NCBI GenBank assembly: GCA_947179295.1 | Contig: CAMXAZ010000018.1 | Span: forward strand, 1 to 46,979 | Direction: 5' to 3' | Source of the DNA: an uncultured Muribaculaceae bacterium | GTDB taxonomy: Bacteria; Bacteroidota; Bacteroidia; Bacteroidales; Muribaculaceae | Length of the DNA: 46,979 bases | Part shown: in pieces, positions 10,354 to 44,002 of the stretch | Layout: every line of letters starts with the position of its first letter | Numbering within the stretch: the stretch's first letter is position 1 | The notes under the pieces: generated by a model | Database searches by the model: none | What the model was told of the DNA's origin: nothing | The model's input: only the letters and a program-made list of their open reading frames with translations | Translations under genes and position numbers: made by a program

Positions 10354-12081
10354 TCAGTCGGCATCGGAAAGCTTACGGCGTGAAGCTTTTTCGATGGCCT
10401 GCTGATAGGCTGTGTCGTAATAATGTATGAATTTCGACCAGGCTGCTTCAGACGCAGTGTTCATTGCGGCCTTGTGGATTTTCTTGGTTTCTTTTTCGCC
10501 GGCTTCTGTCAGGTATTCAAGCGAGTGGGCTATGTTTTCGACTACGGAGCGATAGTTAGAGTCGCCGCGGCCTATGACATTGACGCCGCATTCGTCGAAA
10601 TAGTTCTCGAAACTTTCAAGAACCCACTGTCCGAAACCTGAAAGAGAGGTTGTCACGGTCGGAACTCCGAATGCCACGCTTTCAAGCGGTGTGTAGCCCC
10701 AGGGTTCATAATATGAGGGGAACACGGTGGCGTCAGCGCCGGGCAGGAGGTCGTAATAGCTCATGTTGAATATGCCGTCGGTGCCGTTGAGATAGCAGGG
10801 TACGTAGATGACTTCGACACGCGGGTCGATCTCTGTGAATCCGAGCTGGTGCATACGGCAGTTGACTGCGTCTGATTCCGGATTGTTGAGCCAGTGGGTG
10901 ATCACCGGGTCATTGAGCGGGGCTTCATCGTTGACCAGCGGAGCTTTTTCAAGAGTTGCGAGTCTTTCGGCGAGGTCCGCGCGGGCTTCTTTGGGCCATG
11001 CGGGCACCATTACGAATGCTATGATATTGCGGGCAGGCTCGCAGCGCTTCAGTTCGTCACAGACGTCAAGGAAGAGGTCGAGGCCTTTGTTGCGGTATTC
11101 GCAACGGCCGCTGGTGATTACTATGAATGAGTTCGGGTCAATCTTTTTGGCGGTAAGAGCCGAGGCGACAGAGAGCATTTTGTCGCGGGCGGCTTTGCGG
11201 GCAGCGGGCAGTTTTGCGGCTGCAGGCACGAAGTTCTTTTCAAAACCGTTGGGGGTGACCACATCCGGACGGCGTTCAAGCAGCTGCTCGCATTCTCTGG
11301 CAGTGATCTCGCTTACGGTAGTGAACGAGTCTGCGGCATGGGCCGCTGCCTTTTCGAGTGAATGTTTGGCCTCCATGTTGAGCTCGCGGGCCATCTGGTC
11401 GCCGTTATAGCCGTCAAGATAGTCGTAGAGAGGCTTGTTGTTGCCGCAGATGCTGCGTCCGATGCTTGTGGCGTGGGTTGTGAAAACGGTGCCGACTTTC
11501 GGCAGTTTCCAGCGCACATACAGAAGTCCCATTCCGGTGGTCCATTCGTCGAAATGGGCCACGATGCGGCTCTGTTTCTTGCGTCCGCGCTTTCCGGCGG
11601 GCTGCACCGGCTGGCCGAAGCCGGATTTTATTATAGATTCGATGACTACTCCGGATGCATGGGCGAAAGCGCAGCCTTCGTCATAATCGCCATAGGCATG
11701 AAGCGAATCGACGCCGAAGCGCTTCCACATTTCGCCGTAGAATTCGTCTTTTACGGCATACATGCCGTCGAATTTTACAAGTACAGCGATCGGTCGTCCG
11801 GGAATTTCCCAACGGCCTACTCTTACGCTTACTCCTTCAGGAAGCTTGGCGTTGAGTGCCCAGTCGGAAAGTCCGGTGATTTTGCATTCTGAAAACCAGG
11901 GAGAAGGTGTGTCAGAGGTCCATACGTCAGGACCGATGAAGATGGTTTTGTCTTTGAATTGTTTCTGAAGAGTCTTGGCCTTCGTGGACAAGACGGTGTA
12001 GATGCCGCCAATCTTGTTGCATACCTCCCAGCTAACTTCGAAGAGGAGATCGACCTGTGGTGTGGCAGGTGTTTTGTCCAT
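10354..12081 (-). CDS. Glycogen synthase, GT3 (eukaryotic GYS type)
   Basis: A 575-residue GT-B glycosyltransferase of family GT3, the animal/fungal glycogen-synthase type also found in Bacteroidetes, rather than bacterial GT5 GlgA. The N-terminal motif [16 protein letters not shown] is characteristic: the lysine in NKIGG is the sugar-nucleotide binding region. Near the C-terminus, [15 protein letters not shown] is the expected donor-site motif with its conserved glutamates. GT3 enzymes usually use UDP-glucose; I infer this here. It is first in the operon with glgP. The promoter lies about 40 bases upstream, at the edge of the 62-bp repeat. Confidence 0.92.
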
Positions 12082-12118: not shown

Positions 12119-12126
12119 CAAAGTTA
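12119..12126 (-). promoter_or_regulatory. -7 box of the glycogen operon
   Basis: The complement reads TAACTTTG, a perfect TAnnTTTG box 38 bases before the synthase start. The -33 region falls inside repeat copy 1 and is only weakly matched (TTGC/CTTG at 21-22 bases). Confidence 0.55.
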
Positions 12127-12129
12127 AGC

Positions 12130-12191
12130 ATTTTTTTCTAAATATCTGCAAGATAGACTAAAAATGACATAGATTTTGTATTGTGGGCATT
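12130..12191 (+). repeat. 62-bp direct repeat, copy 1
   Basis: Identical at 60 of 62 positions to 13556-13617; the only differences are the AT (copy 1) / GC (copy 2) pair after AAAAATGAC. This copy abuts the glycogen-operon -7 box. It contains the TTTG that serves as -33 of the GH28 promoter in copy 2, but is followed here only by a degenerate CACGTTTG. Confidence 0.95.
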
Positions 12192-12403
12192 GAAAGCACG
12201 TTTGAAAGCATGTTCAAGCACATTCAGCTGTACGTTCAGCAAGCTGGTTTTGTAGACTGGTCCTATTGGCTCCCCTGTTCCTAATCTTCAGTCACCATGC
12301 TACAGCATGGCTCCATCAAATTATGAATAGGTTAGCTCAAAAATACATCCACTCCGGCTTCACATTTGTTATTAAACAACGAACTCTAATACTCACGAGT
12401 AGA
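12192..12403. other. Non-coding stretch between repeat copy 1 and the hydrolase gene
   Basis: No gene is seen. The first 60 bases carry short imperfect repeats (GAAAGCACGTT, GAAAGCATGTT, CAAGCACATT, CAGCTGTACGTT). A 6-bp hairpin CCATGC/GCATGG lies at 12295-12310; it may help end the hydrolase transcript but has no T-run. Confidence 0.4.
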
Positions 12404-13249
12404 TCACTGCCGGTTCGGGTCAAGACATATCTCGGAGTAAAGCCAATCAGATGCAAGTGAGGCTGCTTGGGCTGTGTTGCCTGTAAAGCTGTGGTCTTCG
12501 CCGTCAATGAGCCGGATAGAGGCGTTTTCAAGGTCGTGACGGAATCGCTCTCCATATGTGTATGGCACTATCCGGTCGGCTTTACCGTGTATGATGAACG
12601 TAGGGCCGGTGTAGCGGCTTGCAATCTCATAAATGGGTAGTTCGCGGGCGGCTACAATGTAGTCGCGGCCAAGTTTCAGTCCATTTGGCATTGTTATGTA
12701 TTCCGGAACATTCCACGGATCATACATGGCTCCCATAGTGTTTCCGCGCAGTGCGTCATCGCGCAATACGGCAGCAGGGGCCATCAGCACAAGTGACCTG
12801 ATTTCTATGTCGCCAAGTTCTCCGGCGGTCATTGCCGCCACTACTCCGCCTTGAGAGTGTCCGAGCAATGAGATGTTTTTTGCAAAATTTTGAGTCCGGA
12901 CCCATTTTATCACCGTTTTTGCGTCTTCGATTTCATTTGGCACGGTCATATTCCGGAATTCGCCGTCGCTTTTGCCGTGGCCGTTGAAATCAAATCTGAC
13001 TACCCCGATGCCTTTTGCCACAAGGTCGGATGAGATGTCATCAAACAATTCTCCGTCCATGCAGCCCATAAAACCATGACAAAGTATGACTATCGGCAAT
13101 TTTTTGGCTGTCTCTATCTGTGGCAGTTGCAGATGTGTGGCGAGACGCCCTACAGAGCCCTGGATGTAGAAGACGGAATCGGTCTGTGCCGACAGGCCGA
13201 GACAACATAAGACTGTGGTTATGATTAATATAATGTGCTTCATCATCAT
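12404..13249 (-). CDS. Secreted alpha/beta-hydrolase (esterase, feruloyl/cinnamoyl-esterase-like)
   Basis: A 281-residue alpha/beta-hydrolase with an N-terminal signal peptide (hydrophobic residues 5-19, cleavage probably after LSA at about 21). The core shows the oxyanion strand HGF (58-60), the nucleophile elbow GHSQGG (S132), acid D225 in HGKADRIVP and H253 in GEDHSFTG. These give a complete triad. Its overall pattern resembles intracellular or secreted cinnamoyl/feruloyl esterases of gut bacteria, which remove ester-linked groups from plant polysaccharide. The substrate is inferred from the adjacent pectin/arabinan genes. It has its own promoter. The gene lies within a block flanked by the 62-bp repeats, so it appears to be a later arrival between the glycogen operon and the GH28 gene. 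Confidence 0.85.
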   Translation of the reverse strand: MMMKHIILIITTVLCCLGLSAQTDSVFYIQGSVGRLATHLQLPQIETAKKLPIVILCHGFMGCMDGELFDDISSDLVAKGIGVVRFDFNGHGKSDGEFRNMTVPNEIEDAKTVIKWVRTQNFAKNISLLGHSQGGVVAAMTAGELGDIEIRSLVLMAPAAVLRDDALRGNTMGAMYDPWNVPEYITMPNGLKLGRDYIVAARELPIYEIASRYTGPTFIIHGKADRIVPYTYGERFRHDLENASIRLIDGEDHSFTGNTAQAASLASDWLYSEICLDPNRQ

Positions 13250-13358
13250 TGTCAGATGTTTTTATTCAGTTGCAGGCGATATTCTTTAGAAGTATCGCGG
13301 ACGTGTTTTTGAAGCAGGAGATGCTTCGTGAATTTTTATGACTGAGATCTGTTTTCGG

Positions 13359-13390
13359 CAAAGATAACAATAATCAGCCATTCTGACAAA
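13359..13390 (-). promoter_or_regulatory. Promoter of the secreted hydrolase
   Basis: On the minus strand: TTTG (complement of 13387-13390), 20 bases, TATCTTTG (complement of 13359-13366). Full consensus; it predicts a leader of about 100 bases. Confidence 0.75.
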
Positions 13391-13442
13391 GAAGACAAGA
13401 TTTGCATAGTGAAAACAACTCAATAACAATAACGGTCAGATT

Positions 13443-13622
13443 ATGAACAGATATATCACATCTCTGATAATTGCATTTTCGTCATTGACAGCAATCAATG
13501 CCCAGAACATCAATATTACCAATATCCCAAGTTTGACCGGGAGTTTGACAGCAGGATTTTTTTCTAAATATCTGCAAGATAGACTAAAAATGACGCAGAT
13601 TTTGTATTGTGGGCATTTCTGA
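13443..13622 (+). pseudogene. Severed 5' end of a secreted-protein gene
   Basis: A 59-codon frame begins with a convincing signal peptide (MNRYITSLIIAFSSLTAINAQ in two parts: MNRYITSLII and AFSSLTAINAQ, cleavage near NAQ). It continues for about 17 residues of mature protein (NINITNIPSLTGSLTAG). At 13556 it runs into copy 2 of the 62-bp repeat, whose counterpart at 12130 is intergenic. The last 21 codons are therefore read from former intergenic DNA. I infer the 5' remnant of a gene divergent from the hydrolase, carried in on the same inserted segment. A short secreted peptide is still formally possible. Confidence 0.6.
13556..13617 (+). repeat. 62-bp direct repeat, copy 2
   Basis: This is the second copy of the 12130-12191 sequence, in the same orientation. 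Its TTTG at 13601-13604 is the -33 box of the GH28 promoter, so this copy keeps its ancestral right flank. Confidence 0.95.
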
Positions 13623-13631
13623 GTAACTTTG
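13601..13631 (+). promoter_or_regulatory. Promoter of the GH28 gene
   Basis: TTTG at 13601-13604, a 19-base spacer and TAACTTTG at 13624-13631. The -33 box is inside the direct repeat and the -7 box lies just outside it. Confidence 0.75.
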
Positions 13632-13690
13632 CGGGGAAAATCACATTTCAGTCTGCTAATTTTTTTAATTTACAAATAATGTATATGACC

Positions 13691-15130
13691 ATGAAGAAAA
13701 CTTTGATGGCGCTGGCATTGGCGCTGGCATTTGTCAGTATGCCTGCTGAAGCGCAGAAAAAGGGCAAGACCCCTGACGAAGCGGCCAAGGCATGGGCCGA
13801 ACTGTATCCCGAAATCGAAAAGTCGATCAAGGCTCCTACTTTCCGTGAAAAAGACTATCCTCTTTTCAAATATGGCAAGAAGTCAAAGACCCAGGGCTAT
13901 CTCTACACTCAGCTTATCAATAAGGTGATAGACCGCTGCTCGCGTGAGGGCGGTGGCCGCGTGGTGATTCCTGCCGGAACCTGGCTCACAGGCCCGATCA
14001 CTCTCAAGAGCAATGTCAACCTCCATCTCGAAGAGGGTGCCACTCTGCTTTTCACTCCCGATCTGAAGGAATATCCTCTGGTGCGCACCCGCTGGGAGGG
14101 CATGGACTGCTACAATTATCAGCCTATGATCTATGCCTACGAGCAGGAAAACATTGCCATCACCGGCAAGGGTACAATCGACGGCGGTGCCGAAATCGAG
14201 AACTGGTGGCGAATGTGTGGCGCGAAGAGCTACGGCTGGGAAGACGGCAAGGGCATAATCTCGCAGCGCATCGGACGTCCGCTTCTCATGGAGTGGAACG
14301 AAAAGGGTGTGCCTGTTGAGGAACGTCGCATGGGCGATGGCTACGGTATGCGTGTGCAGCTCGTCAATCCGGTCAAGTGCAAGAATGTGCTGATCGAGGA
14401 TGTCACTCTGCTGCGTTCTCCGTTCTGGGTGATCCACCCGCTGCTGTGTGAGAACCTCACGGTGCGTGGCGTGCATATTCAGAATGACGGCCCCAACGGT
14501 GACGGCTGTGACCCGGAGTCATGCAAGAACGTGCTGATCGAACGCTGCTATTTCGATACCGGTGATGACTGCATCGCCATCAAGAGCGGACGTAACCGCG
14601 ACGGCCGTACAGCAAACATTCCGTCAGAAAATATCATTGTGCGCAACTGCAAGATGAAAAACGGCCACGGCGGTGTGGTTGTGGGCAGCGAGATCTCAGG
14701 CGGTTTCCGCAACCTCTTTGTGGAAGACTGCGAGATGGACAGTCCCGAACTTGACCGCGTGATCCGCATCAAGACCAATAACTGCCGCGGCGGTGTGATC
14801 GAGAACATCTATGTGCGCAACGTGGAAGTGGGCCAGTGCAAGGAAGCCGTGCTGAAGATCAACCTTGTCTACGAGCAGCGCGAGATCTGCCAGCGTGACT
14901 TCAACCCGACCGTGCGCAATGTCTTCCTTGACAACGTGAACTGCCGCAAGAGCAAATACGGTGTGCGCATCGACGGTTTCGACGATATCTGCAATGTCTA
15001 CAATGTGGAGGTCAAGAACTCGGTGTTCGAAGGTGTGACCGACGGAGCTTTCCTGCTCAACGGCCAGACTGCCAATGTGCGTTTCTCGAACCTCAAGATC
15101 AACAGCGGAGTGCTCAAGCCTCTGAAGTAA
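13691..15130 (+). CDS. Secreted GH28 polygalacturonase-family glycoside hydrolase
   Basis: A GH28 right-handed beta-helix enzyme, which hydrolyses galacturonic-acid linkages in pectin (polygalacturonase or rhamnogalacturonase type). A signal peptide (KKTLMALALALAFVS, cleavage near AEA-Q) directs it out of the cytoplasm. The family catalytic motifs are present: NDGPNGDGCDP at about residues 265-275, DTGDDCIAIKSG at about 289-300 and GHGGVVVGSE at about 324-333. I use ATG 13691 because Lys-Lys follows directly as in a typical signal peptide; ATG 13679 and 13685 are alternatives. Any start before about 13637 would precede the predicted transcription start. It is convergent with the GH51 gene. 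Confidence 0.93.
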   Translation: MKKTLMALALALAFVSMPAEAQKKGKTPDEAAKAWAELYPEIEKSIKAPTFREKDYPLFKYGKKSKTQGYLYTQLINKVIDRCSREGGGRVVIPAGTWLTGPITLKSNVNLHLEEGATLLFTPDLKEYPLVRTRWEGMDCYNYQPMIYAYEQENIAITGKGTIDGGAEIENWWRMCGAKSYGWEDGKGIISQRIGRPLLMEWNEKGVPVEERRMGDGYGMRVQLVNPVKCKNVLIEDVTLLRSPFWVIHPLLCENLTVRGVHIQNDGPNGDGCDPESCKNVLIERCYFDTGDDCIAIKSGRNRDGRTANIPSENIIVRNCKMKNGHGGVVVGSEISGGFRNLFVEDCEMDSPELDRVIRIKTNNCRGGVIENIYVRNVEVGQCKEAVLKINLVYEQREICQRDFNPTVRNVFLDNVNCRKSKYGVRIDGFDDICNVYNVEVKNSVFEGVTDGAFLLNGQTANVRFSNLKINSGVLKPLK

Positions 15131-15210: not shown

Positions 15211-17217
15211 TTATCGGGCGATGGGGATGCGGCAGACGGCAAATGTCTTGGCCGGGAGAGTTAAAGAGGCGGTGTTGCCGCTTGCCGGAAGGGCGGTTTC
15301 CACGGGGATGATGCGGTCAGGGTTTTCCAGAGTGTTGTCGCAGTCAATGTCAGGGGTGCCGTCGGGACGGAGGGGTGCGGAGAGGGTGATGACGCGTCCG
15401 TCGGTCAGTGAGCGGCCTTTTTTCAGTTTCTGAAAATTCAGGGTGATCTCGTGCGGGCTGTCAGAGGTGTTGGCAATCTTTACAATGTAGCCGCCGGTGG
15501 CATCGTCAGTGACGGCCGAGGCGTAGAGACCGTTCTGGCCTTCGGCTCCGGTGACAGGCTGCCCGTCAAGAGTCAGCGGCAGAACGCGTGAGCCCTTGTT
15601 GGAGGCATAGAGCTGCTGCACGTAGTAGCTTGCGGTGGCTACCGAGCCAAGATTGTCGAACCAGATCATGTCAGGGCGCCACTGCCAGCCTTCGGTGTGG
15701 GCGAAAAGCGGAGCATAGGTGGCCATGTGGACCACGTCGGCATTGCGTTCGAGTCCGGTCATGAAAGCGGCTTCAAGGAGAGAGGCGTTGAAGTGGTTGA
15801 ACTTCTTGCCTTTGCCGTGGCAGGCATATTCGCCGGCGAATACTTTAGGGCCTTTGCGGGGATAGGAGTCGTAGCGGGTGGCCTGCGAGAGGAAGAATTC
15901 TTCAGGAGCATAGAAATGTTCGTCGACCAGGTCGGCTTTCAGTCGCCGCATCTCAGGCCACAGATAGTCAAACTCCTTGCCTGAAGCTTTCGGACCGGAT
16001 GAGCCTACGAGTTTTATTTCAGGGCAGGCCTTTCGGATGGCTCTGACAAAGGGTTCGAGACGTTCGGGGTATTCCGGGCCCCACTGCTCGTTGCCGATGG
16101 CGAGGAAGCGGAGGTTGAATGGCGCGGGGTGGCCCATTTCGGCACGCACCTTTCCCCAGGGAGAATCAGTCGGGCCGTTGGCGAATTCAATGAGGTCAAG
16201 GGCATCCTGAATGTAAGGTTGCAGGCTGTCAGCCGGCACATGGGCTTTGGGATCTTTGTTCTGATACTGACATGCGAGGCCTACGTTGATTACCGGGAGC
16301 GGTTCGGCTCCGATCTCTTCGGCAAGGCGGAAATATTCGAAGAATCCGAGCCCGTAGCTCTGGTAATAGTCAGGGAAGAAGCGGTGGCGGAAGGTGTAGT
16401 GCCAGCGGTTTTCGTTGAGCGGGCGATTTTCCACGGGGCCGACGGTGTTTTTCCACTGATAGCGTGTGGGCAGGTCGGTGCCTTCCACAATGCAGCCGCC
16501 CGGAAAGCGCAGCAGGCCGGGGCGGATGTCGGCCAGTTTCTGCGCAAGGTCCTTGCGCAGGCCGTTTTCATGGCCCTGCCATGTTTCGGCGGGAAAGAGC
16601 GAGATGTGTTCGAGGTCACAGCCGGTTTTAGAGTCGAGGAATATGCGCAGTTTTCCTTTTCTGACCGTGGCCGACGGGGTGAGCGCGGTGGTGTATTTCT
16701 GCCATTGGCCGTCTTTGATCTCGATGGTCTCCGAGGCCATGACCTGAGTCTCGCCGGCGGCCGAGGGGTCGATAAGTTCAATGCGGATCTTCGACGGATG
16801 CTGCGAAGTGCTGCGGGCCCAGAGGCTGAAACGGTAGCTTTCGCCTTTGCGGAAGGCTATGCCGAAAAAGCCTTCGTTGGTCAGCCCGGTAGCCTTGTCT
16901 TTGTGAGGGGCGGCGGTCAGCCTGACGTAGTGTGGATTGCGTTCAAAGGGGCCGTCGTCGAGCAAGGCGACTGATCCGAAGCTTTCCCAGCCCATAAGGT
17001 TCTGAGGGAATTCGAAAGAGCGGTTTTTGACCATTTCGGCGTAGAGGCCGCCGTCAGCGGCATAGTTGATGTCTTCGAAGAAGAGTCCGTACATTGTGGG
17101 CTGTATCTCGGCTCCCGGATGGTCGGTGCGGATAATGAATTCTTCGGCTTGGGTTGGCAGCCCGGATGCGATGGCGGCGAGCATTGAGCAGACTGTTGAC
17201 CTGAATCTGAGTTTCAT
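15211..17217 (-). CDS. Secreted alpha-L-arabinofuranosidase, GH51
   Basis: A 668-residue GH51 arabinofuranosidase that removes arabinofuranosyl side chains from arabinan, pectin or arabinoxylan. A signal peptide is seen (MKLRFRSTVCSMLAAIAS, cleavage near TQA-E). An N-terminal beta-sandwich, carbohydrate-binding-like region (about 30-200) precedes the TIM barrel. The acid/base glutamate is in AIGNEQWGP (about residue 374) and the nucleophile in GEYACHG (about 460). The C-terminal beta domain ends the protein. The open frame extends to 17424, but that part overlaps the SusE gene and a terminator; a -7 box at 17255-17262 supports 17217. It lies downstream of the susCDE-like operon, separated by a hairpin. 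Confidence 0.93.
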   Translation of the reverse strand: MKLRFRSTVCSMLAAIASGLPTQAEEFIIRTDHPGAEIQPTMYGLFFEDINYAADGGLYAEMVKNRSFEFPQNLMGWESFGSVALLDDGPFERNPHYVRLTAAPHKDKATGLTNEGFFGIAFRKGESYRFSLWARSTSQHPSKIRIELIDPSAAGETQVMASETIEIKDGQWQKYTTALTPSATVRKGKLRIFLDSKTGCDLEHISLFPAETWQGHENGLRKDLAQKLADIRPGLLRFPGGCIVEGTDLPTRYQWKNTVGPVENRPLNENRWHYTFRHRFFPDYYQSYGLGFFEYFRLAEEIGAEPLPVINVGLACQYQNKDPKAHVPADSLQPYIQDALDLIEFANGPTDSPWGKVRAEMGHPAPFNLRFLAIGNEQWGPEYPERLEPFVRAIRKACPEIKLVGSSGPKASGKEFDYLWPEMRRLKADLVDEHFYAPEEFFLSQATRYDSYPRKGPKVFAGEYACHGKGKKFNHFNASLLEAAFMTGLERNADVVHMATYAPLFAHTEGWQWRPDMIWFDNLGSVATASYYVQQLYASNKGSRVLPLTLDGQPVTGAEGQNGLYASAVTDDATGGYIVKIANTSDSPHEITLNFQKLKKGRSLTDGRVITLSAPLRPDGTPDIDCDNTLENPDRIIPVETALPASGNTASLTLPAKTFAVCRIPIAR

Positions 17218-17254
17218 GGTGCTGGAGAATAATGTTTTGTGGGTTAGTTTCAGG

Positions 17255-17262
17255 CAAAGATA
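17255..17262 (-). promoter_or_regulatory. -7 box of the GH51 gene
   Basis: The complement reads TATCTTTG, 38 bases before the GH51 start. No good -33 TTTG lies at 19-21 bases, because the terminator hairpin occupies that position. Confidence 0.5.
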
Positions 17263-17281
17263 CGAAAAATTCAAAAATATG

Positions 17282-17325
17282 GCCACCCGGCCTATTCCCT
17301 GAATCGGGAATCGGGCCGGGTGGCG
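17282..17325. terminator. Terminator between the SusE-like and GH51 genes
   Basis: GCCACCCGGCC pairs with GGCCGGGTGGC around an inner ATTCCC/GGGAAT pairing. It follows the SusE-like stop on the minus strand, which suggests GH51 is transcribed mainly from its own promoter. Confidence 0.65.
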
Positions 17326-17351
17326 CTGAGATTGAAATAAGGGACTTGTTA

Positions 17352-18662
17352 TTATTCTACGGCTTCGAATTTCACTGTCATGTTGGGAACATCGACAGTA
17401 AATTTCATCTTGCCGCCTTCCCATGCGGGAATGCTCCAGTTGCCTTTACCTTCAACACACGCTCCTGAGTAGACACCGTCAGTAAGTGCGATTTCAGTAG
17501 AGCTGTCATTTGGTTTGGCGCCGATCGAAGGCAGTTTACCGTCTTCGCCCCAGCTGCCGAGTTCGGTGTAGAAACGGAAGTTGGCTTTGCCTTTGGCTAC
17601 TTCAAAAGTAGCGTAATAGACACCGTTACCATCCCAGTCATAGAGTTTGTAGTTGGCATAAATTTCCTCTGCATTAGGTGCGTCAACAGACCATGCCGAG
17701 CAATCGCCTACGATATAAATGAAATCGAGTTTGCTGGTGTCCCAGTTGCCTTTCTGCATGGTGACTGTAATAGCGTCTTTATCGGTCATATCTACTGTGA
17801 AAGTCACATAACCTCCCTCCCATGTTTCAGGGGTGTACCACGAGCCTTTGCCAGGTACCGCGGTGTGTTTAACCGCCTCCTCAGTGAATGTCACTTCGAC
17901 TTTCTCACCATCATTTGGCTTTGGTCCTATTGAGGGGAGTTGGCCGTTTTCGCCCCAGGAACCAAGTTCGGTATAGAAACGGAACTCTGTTTTCCCGGCT
18001 GGCATATCGAATGCGCCGACATAGATGTTGGTGCCTACACCTGTTTCGTTGAGGCCCCATTTTGCGAAGCTTTCCGGAGTGGCAGCATCAACACCCCAGC
18101 CGGTGAGAGCACCCACAATATATATGGTGCGGCCGACTTCAGGATAGGGATTGTAGGGAGTCACGGAGGGGAGCACCACGTTGTTTGACACGCAGTTGCT
18201 CGATGCGATCGACGGAATGCGGGCATTAGCGCGTACAGTCACTTTCTGCGGCTGAACGTCAGCATCTTCAAATTCCTTGAAAGTATTGATGCCGAGAAGC
18301 TGGCAGATGGCGGTGGTCACGTCCTTGTCATCAAGCTCGATTGCAGTCTTGGTGGGCTGCTTGGGGGTGAGTGTGATGTAGTTGGCCTCGGTGCCGGTTT
18401 CCTCGTTGGCTTCGATGAATTCGTCGGCGAGGGTGAGGTCAACAGAGTAGGTGGTCACAAGGGGGATTCCGTAGTCAGGAGCCACGGCTGTAAGTTCTAC
18501 AACCTGGCCGGGAGCGAGGACAATGTTGTCGTCTTCTGCAGGCGCTGAAAGGGCGAATACCTTTTCGGCGGGTTCTACGTAGACCGGCTCCTTGTCAGCC
18601 TCACATGAGGTGAGGGAGGCAGCGGCTACTGCAAGTGATGCTAAAATATATAACTTTTTCAT
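17352..18662 (-). CDS. SusE/SusF-like surface glycan-binding lipoprotein
   Basis: A 436-residue outer-membrane lipoprotein: signal sequence, then lipobox LTSC at residues 17-20 followed by acidic residues (EADKE), typical of surface export in Bacteroidetes. An N-terminal SusE-type Ig-like domain (about 30-165) leads to two tandem SusEF-type carbohydrate-binding modules (about 176-300 and 310-436). Both carry the near-identical segment FRFYTELGSWGE and then LPSIG.KPND, indicating an internal duplication. It would bind glycan at the cell surface and pass it to the SusC/SusD pair. It is the third gene of the operon; 21 bases separate it from the susD-like stop. Confidence 0.88.
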   Translation of the reverse strand: MKKLYILASLAVAAASLTSCEADKEPVYVEPAEKVFALSAPAEDDNIVLAPGQVVELTAVAPDYGIPLVTTYSVDLTLADEFIEANEETGTEANYITLTPKQPTKTAIELDDKDVTTAICQLLGINTFKEFEDADVQPQKVTVRANARIPSIASSNCVSNNVVLPSVTPYNPYPEVGRTIYIVGALTGWGVDAATPESFAKWGLNETGVGTNIYVGAFDMPAGKTEFRFYTELGSWGENGQLPSIGPKPNDGEKVEVTFTEEAVKHTAVPGKGSWYTPETWEGGYVTFTVDMTDKDAITVTMQKGNWDTSKLDFIYIVGDCSAWSVDAPNAEEIYANYKLYDWDGNGVYYATFEVAKGKANFRFYTELGSWGEDGKLPSIGAKPNDSSTEIALTDGVYSGACVEGKGNWSIPAWEGGKMKFTVDVPNMTVKFEAVE

Positions 18663-43680: not shown

Positions 43681-44002
43681 AGAGGGTGTTTCATAACAAC
43701 AGTTAAAATCTGAGCGAAAGATTTGAGATGGATATGGCTTTGAATTGAAGGAGCATAGCGAGCTATGTGACTGAAATGAAAAGCCATAGCCGCTCAAAGC
43801 TTTCGGAGGCGATTGTATTGTCTTTTTGTAAATAGGATATTCCATTTGTAAAAAATTTAAAGTTACCTGAGCCTTGGTGTCTCTTTTGCTAAATTGTTGA
43901 AGCTCGTCAGTCGCATAGCTCGCTATGCTTCTTCCTCCCTTGCAACAATTTATCTAAAAGATACACCACTCAGATTTTAACTCTTGTTATGAAACACCCT
44001 CT
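43681..44002. mobile_element. MITE-like element with 34-bp terminal inverted repeats
   Basis: A 322-bp non-coding element is bounded by 34-bp inverted repeats that match at 33 positions (43681-43714 and 43969-44002). Inside are two long hairpins: 43715-43741 with 43780-43805, and 43876-43899 with 43943-43967. The loop of each hairpin carries the same motif in opposite orientation, AGCATAGCGAGCTATG followed by Y-GACTGA (near 43750-43775 and 43905-43932). No coding frame or clear target duplication is visible; the flanks are TATATTTT and TATACTGC. It fits a miniature inverted-repeat transposable element or a repeated cruciform element. A single copy is seen in this window. Confidence 0.75.

Follow-up and report, generated by a model that had tools for sequence, protein, structure and literature searches.

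Probable transposase-free insertion of an esterase-like gene, flanked by a 62-bp duplication, into a divergent promoter interval of Duncaniella

How could a single hydrolase gene come to lie between two copies of the same promoter interval without any transposase beside it? This question is raised by the region separating a glycogen synthase gene from a GH28 glycoside hydrolase gene in an uncultured Muribaculaceae bacterium. The window, i.e., the whole 46,979-bp stretch of DNA analysed, is contig 18 of a 2.85-Mb Duncaniella assembly (G000). The earlier note on this DNA had described a 62-bp duplication with 60 matching positions and proposed that a single ancestral glycogen synthase/GH28 intergenic region was opened by an insertion that duplicated 62 bp of target. 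Alignment of the two copies, which are offset by 1426 bp, reproduced the identity of 60/62 and could be stretched to 62 identical positions of 65. A search of the whole assembly (E <= 0.001) returned these two copies and no other match, and we rejected the idea that the block belongs to a dispersed repeat family. The same repeat pair around the same insert was found in Duncaniella muris DSM 103720 (G012), which matched G000 at 98% across all 2101 query bases and was the sole such locus among 60 relatives searched; over 1700 bp containing the insert and the repeat pair, the two genomes are 98.5% identical. Because the arrangement is common to two separately sequenced genomes, an assembly slip in a single genome is excluded. 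The features of the locus are collected in Table 1.

Table 1. Features of the filled locus, in window positions; promoter elements are predictions.
Feature	Position	Strand	Basis
Glycogen synthase (Glycogen_syn family), left neighbour	10354..12081	-	Pfam PF05693, E 9.2e-87
Glycogen synthase promoter, predicted -7 box (TAACTTTG), separated from copy 1 by 3 bp	12119..12126	-	Promoter pattern; same layout in five empty-site relatives
62-bp repeat, copy 1, with the glycogen synthase -33 (CAA 12149-12151, i.e., TTG on the - strand) and an orphan GH28 -33 (TTTG 12175-12178)	12130..12191		Orphan placed from copy 2 at offset 1426
Tract at the left junction made up of short, imperfect direct repeats, the first of which (TTGAAAGCACGT) shares 2 bases with the end of copy 1	12192..12246		Repeat search, shuffles
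Dispersed palindromic (REP-like) element of ~340 bp when full, present here as its right half without the left	12245..12397	+	Alignment to full copies
Alpha/beta-hydrolase, cinnamoyl/chlorogenic-acid-esterase-like, frame intact	12404..13249	-	Hydrolase_4, E 1.8e-22; chlorogenic acid esterase 10bv, E 2.5e-56
Hydrolase promoter, predicted -7 box (TATCTTTG), with a TTTG lying 20 bases upstream	13359..13366	-	Promoter pattern
Truncated start of a second alpha/beta-hydrolase gene, broken off at the right junction	13443..13555	+	Partial matches to whole relatives
62-bp repeat, copy 2, with the GH28 -33 (TTTG 13601-13604); the orphan here is a glycogen synthase -33 (13575-13577)	13556..13617		Repeat alignment, promoter scan
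GH28 promoter, predicted -7 box (TAACTTTG), separated from copy 2 by 6 bp	13624..13631	+	Promoter pattern
GH28 glycoside hydrolase, right neighbour	13679..15130	+	PF00295, E 7e-29

The sequence upstream of glycogen synthase was compared across 26 genomes of the genus; the 27th, G019, gave no glycogen synthase match and was left out. Glycogen synthase and GH28 are divergent neighbours in seven of these genomes: two are filled (G000 and G012) and five are empty, having the same neighbours and no insert (G005, G008, G018, G020 and G025). A search of the ~2–2.8 kb upstream of glycogen synthase in the other 19 turned up no GH28 gene. An empty site carrying one copy of the repeat had been suggested as a check on the insertion. 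At all five empty sites the repeat's first 40 bp occur as a single copy beside the glycogen synthase -7 box, with 32–35 of the 40 positions identical. Its last 22 bp show no conservation in a plain alignment, matching the relatives at 5–6 of 22 positions, near the chance level. Together, the five empty sites and the non-dispersed nature of the repeat support the proposed opening of this intergenic region, and we consider an insertion with a flanking duplication to be well supported. When the flanks of the filled site are joined, the inferred ancestor has a distance of 71 bp from one -7 box to the other, compared to 134–158 bp in the five relatives. This shortfall of 63–87 bp points to an added, lineage-specific loss of sequence, either before or during the event.

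Bacteroidota promoters follow the pattern of a TTTG or TTG at -33 and a TAnnTTTG at -7. By this pattern the predicted glycogen synthase promoter reads TTG-22-TAACTTTG and the predicted GH28 promoter TTTG-19-TAACTTTG, and the five empty-site relatives have the same layout with spacings of 22 and 20, respectively. Both predicted -33 elements lie inside the repeat and both -7 boxes just outside it, the 62-bp extent of the repeat being very nearly the interval that separates the -7 boxes of the two divergent promoters. Going by the predicted elements, copy 1 serves glycogen synthase and holds an orphan GH28 -33, a TTTG block that is unused there and resembles the relatives' GH28 promoters. Copy 2 serves GH28 and holds the orphan counterpart, the 40-bp block that adjoins glycogen synthase in the five relatives. 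This arrangement agrees with the earlier description of copy 1 as joined to the glycogen -7 box and of copy 2 as joined to the GH28 -7 box and providing its -33 TTTG. Because the duplicated block spans both predicted -33 elements, each neighbour keeps its own.

The weak conservation of the last 22 bp leaves room for a variant of our preferred explanation, one that is not fully exclusive of it. Here, the native sequence upstream of GH28 would have been lost during break repair, copy 2 would have been templated from the glycogen synthase side, and the -33 element now in front of GH28 would be there by chance. The shortened 71-bp interval and the 5–6 matches of 22 by plain alignment are both in its favour. 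A correctly spaced TTTG is not easily had by chance, however, as one is expected at a spacing of 19–21 in only ~3% of cases in random sequence of the repeat's composition. Moreover, when the comparison was anchored on the -33 element with the box itself excluded, the last 22 bp were closer to the relatives' GH28 promoters than 4939 of 5000 shuffles, the other 61 being as good. This anchored test, designed post hoc after the sequences had been seen, gave 6, 10, 7, 10 and 11 identities of 18 in the five relatives, two of which match poorly (G005, 6/18; G008, 7/18). It supports a GH28 origin of the last 22 bp, for which this post hoc comparison is the only backing. We believe that loss of the native upstream sequence followed by a fortuitous -33 element is unlikely.

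The insert is 1364 bp long (12192–13555). Its cargo had been described as an alpha/beta-hydrolase with its own promoter plus a cut-off gene start, and all three parts, the intact frame, the predicted -7 box and the broken gene, are present. The closest solved structures to the hydrolase are chlorogenic acid and cinnamoyl esterases, and it fell below the cut-off in all of the best 25 of 27 NCBIfam families; its signal peptide was judged by eye. The 113-bp start of the second gene is similar to sequences in G127 and G008 (61% over 31 aa each) and in G142 (56% over 32 aa). These three, out of 247 family genomes and G000 and G012 apart, have the whole gene (355 aa). The right end of the insert therefore cuts a gene that is whole elsewhere.

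At the other end, the tract of short direct repeats at the left junction had a self-similarity score of 15 compared to a shuffle mean of 2.35, with 0 of 300 approximate dinucleotide shuffles scoring as high; the tract was picked for this test after it had been seen. It is followed by half of a palindromic element, which matches copies in G015 (93% over 130 bp) and G008 (92% over 133 bp). Full copies of ~340 bp occur in G015, G008, G013, G005 and G002, among others, and one of them had a fold z of -12.85. Alignment with the full copies places the left junction at the expected centre of the element. The version in the insert had no other match in G000 beyond 31 bp at E <= 0.01, and a full-copy query gave 31 matches in G000.

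The palindromic family has the ends TTAGAGGTTGTTTAA.../...TTAAACAACCTCTAA and two REP-like hairpin arms, is intergenic, and is also present as shorter pieces (examples at L010:1285–1632, G008:C1:154606–154947 and window 43681–43777). Matches were seen in 16 of the 27 genus genomes, with dozens in some. A search of locus L010 against Rfam gave five matches at E <= 0.1, none of them above the gathering score and none in the palindromic element; locus L003 gave no Rfam matches. REP-element transposition was considered as the mover of the insert and appears weak in spite of the junction at the element's centre, as a search with the Y1 transposase family (PF01797) gave no match in G000. The same search was negative in G008 and positive in G012, G015, G016 and G026. 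REP/RAYT (REPIN) elements combine intergenic palindromes with a cognate Y1 transposase encoded in the genome; of these traits, the family of the half repeat shows the palindrome and the dispersal.

Relatives of the esterase at E <= 1e-50 were found in 23 of the 247 family genomes, eight of them in its own genus. In the hydrolase tree, the partner of the esterase was a gene from G268, which belongs to another Muribaculaceae genus (83% identity, support 100/99), whereas homologues from six further members of its own genus, beyond G000 and G012, were 51–57% identical to it and scattered across the tree. This tree has 29 rows; the partial G116 sequence, a second G229 copy, loci L081 and L082 (equivalent to G012 and G268) and the distant L089–L091 were left out. 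GC3 was 53.9% for the esterase, lower than in the neighbouring glycogen synthase (62.2%) and GH28 (70.5%) genes. Judging from the tree and the identities, the insert looks horizontally acquired. This reading depends on one closer relative, G268, and old paralogues with differential loss are a possible alternative. The esterase genes of G000 and D. muris differ by three synonymous and three nonsynonymous changes, from which purifying selection is not evident.

A search for 12192–13555 elsewhere, proposed in the earlier note as a way to the donor locus, did not lead to one. No donor locus was found with the insert DNA among 393 genomes of the order, plasmids and phages, nor with the hydrolase protein among the 247 family genomes, genome contigs and viral contigs (the contig scans reach close relatives only). 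The two hydrolase genes were together in none of the fetched loci, which spanned 3–11 kb for most hydrolase hits, and the esterase was absent from the ~3 kb fetched around the whole 355-aa gene in G008, G127 and G142. The nearest esterase gene, in G268 (JAIDXM010000043.1), has 80% DNA identity that is confined to the gene. This relative (L045/L082) sits among FMN-reductase and carboxymuconolactone-decarboxylase/cupin genes. Since no donor locus was found, microhomology at the junctions cannot be read.

One block on each side of the insert is exactly what would result if a circle carrying the hydrolase and the 62-bp block had integrated by a single crossover at the chromosomal block. Integration of circles has been proposed in plants, for transposed Arabidopsis genes whose flanking repeats are of comparable length and correspond to the empty target site (PMC2869330). 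For this to have taken place in Duncaniella, the circle must have held the intergenic block already fused into the broken hydrolase gene, and a search for the block gave two matches in the genome, with no donor carrying it found. We regard integration of a circle as quite unlikely.

Signs of a mobile element were sparse. The esterase is the only ORF of at least 80 aa in the insert, and no recombinase or transposase was found among such ORFs, which bears out the earlier remark that there is no transposase. No terminal inverted repeats were seen by eye at the insert ends. A 13-nt inverted pair (92%) connects 12181–12193, which spans the left junction, with 13495–13507, 48 bp inside the right junction; this pair was treated as chance. 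In the plasmid, phage and viral-contig collections the only match to the insert was 77 bp of a hydrolase gene on a Selenomonas plasmid, and G000 has no second copy of the insert. The hallmarks of a transposon or insertion sequence, i.e., a transposase, terminal inverted repeats and a short target duplication, were thus missing. A discrete, foreign-looking insert between direct repeats could still be the remnant of a defective integrative element or transposon whose enzyme was lost, with the 62 bp representing attL/attR or a very long target duplication. An integrase-driven element would be expected to show a recombinase gene, a circular form and other occupied sites. Given the lone ORF, the plain ends and the near-empty searches, we consider such a remnant very unlikely.

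The repeat copies differ from each other at 2 of 62 positions in G000 and at 3 of 62 in G012. The difference at 12170 is common to both genomes and the other three changes are private, from which the duplication would be only slightly older than the split of the two genomes. It seems to predate this split, though not by much, on a count of few sites that ignores gene conversion. Identity between G000 and G012 in 500-base windows across 7.1–15.3 kb ranged from 93 to 99.6%, with windows consisting mainly of insert at 98.6–99.6%. Further to the right, 1388 bp of the window (15492–16879) are absent from D. muris (L081), reflecting either a deletion there or an insertion here; they lie inside a 737-aa ORF (15211–17424), putatively arabinofuranosidase-like.

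The direction of change at the locus was considered on a tree of glycogen synthase from the 26 genomes (first 220 codons, midpoint root). The filled G000 and G012 grouped with a support of 100/100, and the five empty genomes grouped with G002, in which glycogen synthase is flanked by different genes. Since the five empty sites all fall on the same side of the tree, parsimony by itself does not favour a gain in G000 and G012 over a loss among the relatives. That the insert is old and was lost tracelessly from the five relatives by recombination between the repeats, as the tree would permit with one change in either direction and as direct repeats would favour by precise deletion (so that its absence from the relatives is no evidence against it), is nevertheless highly improbable, because copies that differ at two or three positions, one of them shared, mark a young duplication unless gene conversion has intervened.

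Taken together, the locus is probably best explained by a transposase-free repair event that inserted a foreign piece of ~1.36 kb and duplicated the 62-bp promoter interval in doing so. The event would have taken place in the common ancestor of G000 and D. muris. The piece, probably from another Muribaculaceae, would have comprised the esterase gene, one half of a palindromic repeat next to it and 113 bp from the start of the gene that followed, and it would have landed in the divergent promoter interval between glycogen synthase and GH28, leaving the 62 bp between the -7 boxes on both of its sides. We envisage that, during repair of a break or a stalled fork, synthesis ran off the interval on its GH28 side, continued into foreign DNA by copying it or by being joined to it, and then picked up again 62 bp further back, on the glycogen synthase side. 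This could have occurred through a template switch out and back or through fill-in of a 62-nt staggered break, and in neither case would a transposase or integrase be needed. A fragment that ends inside a gene on one side and inside a palindromic element on the other, together with the 62-bp duplication, is consistent with error-prone repair of a break or fork. The stuttered tract at the left junction leans towards the template switch over the staggered break, although this tract could also be older donor sequence. The -33 elements kept by both promoters would make the outcome tolerable, and selection may have had a part in this tolerance.

A more specific version of this repair scheme is a replication-based capture route in Bacteroidota. 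The end of a fork or break would switch to foreign DNA, stutter, copy a gene from a template ending in the middle of a REP-like element, and return upstream of where it left, with the target duplicated and both promoters surviving. We put this forward tentatively, as a possibility that we would not yet expect to hold.

The kind of event seen here has parallels. Insertion with long target duplication got its name from work on Helicobacter pylori (Nobusato, Uchiyama, Ohashi, Kobayashi, Gene 2000; as relayed in PMC1643837, PMC4978471, PMC3031569 and PMC3154945). As in the H. pylori insertions described there, a block of genes is missing from a relative, a long direct repeat stands at both ends (60/62 bp in the present case), and the mechanism is unsettled. 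The H. pylori insertions are described as often associated with restriction-modification genes (PMC1643837), an association and not a requirement, and no such cargo is present in our insert; it is esterase-like, the host is Duncaniella, and what was duplicated is a divergent promoter interval. Transposed single genes of Arabidopsis have flanking direct repeats of 30–287 bp in cases where the repeat is also present in the relative's orthologous region, and circle integration was favoured by the authors (Woodhouse et al. 2010, PMC2869330). The Duncaniella insert likewise has a single gene between direct repeats that match the empty site, but Arabidopsis is a eukaryote, the source there was within the same genome, and no sign of a circle is seen here. 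In homology-facilitated illegitimate recombination in bacteria, foreign DNA also enters the chromosome through an illegitimate junction; it needs homology at one donor end, and the abstract of PMC3240628 describes no long target duplication. Of 19 papers found to use the term "insertion with long target duplication", none named Bacteroidota in its title, and a search with Bacteroides and related terms found none. The event therefore seems to belong to a kind that is rare but has been described before; its cargo and its promoter-preserving outcome are unusual, and we make no claim of priority for Bacteroidota.

Recurrence of such repeat pairs was assessed in the window and 20 further stretches of 20 kb, chosen non-randomly from 13 contigs and amounting to 446,979 bases of the 2.85-Mb genome. 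This control gave 14 direct-repeat pairs (35–400 bp, at least 88% identical, 0.3–8 kb apart) in 4 of the 21 stretches, the pair of the window included. An identical 37-bp pair in L157 (G000:C14; 1088–1124 and 2381–2417, 1293 bp apart) lies between small ORFs, and a 101-bp pair in L165 coincides with the beginnings of two related ORFs that lie side by side; neither of these two inspected pairs was a clear second case of a duplication flanking an insert. The remaining 11 pairs were distributed between L165 (2) and L166 (9).

For this gut genus, the locus provides a clean case of apparent gain of a single gene without a mobile element, one in which the site is known both filled and empty. The long target duplication lets the insert split a promoter region common to two genes with the predicted promoter elements of both neighbours retained. 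We predict that foreign single genes in divergent promoter intervals will carry long flanking duplications with both -33 elements. If the replication-based capture route is true, divergent promoter intervals would be favoured landing sites, as long duplications are harmless there.
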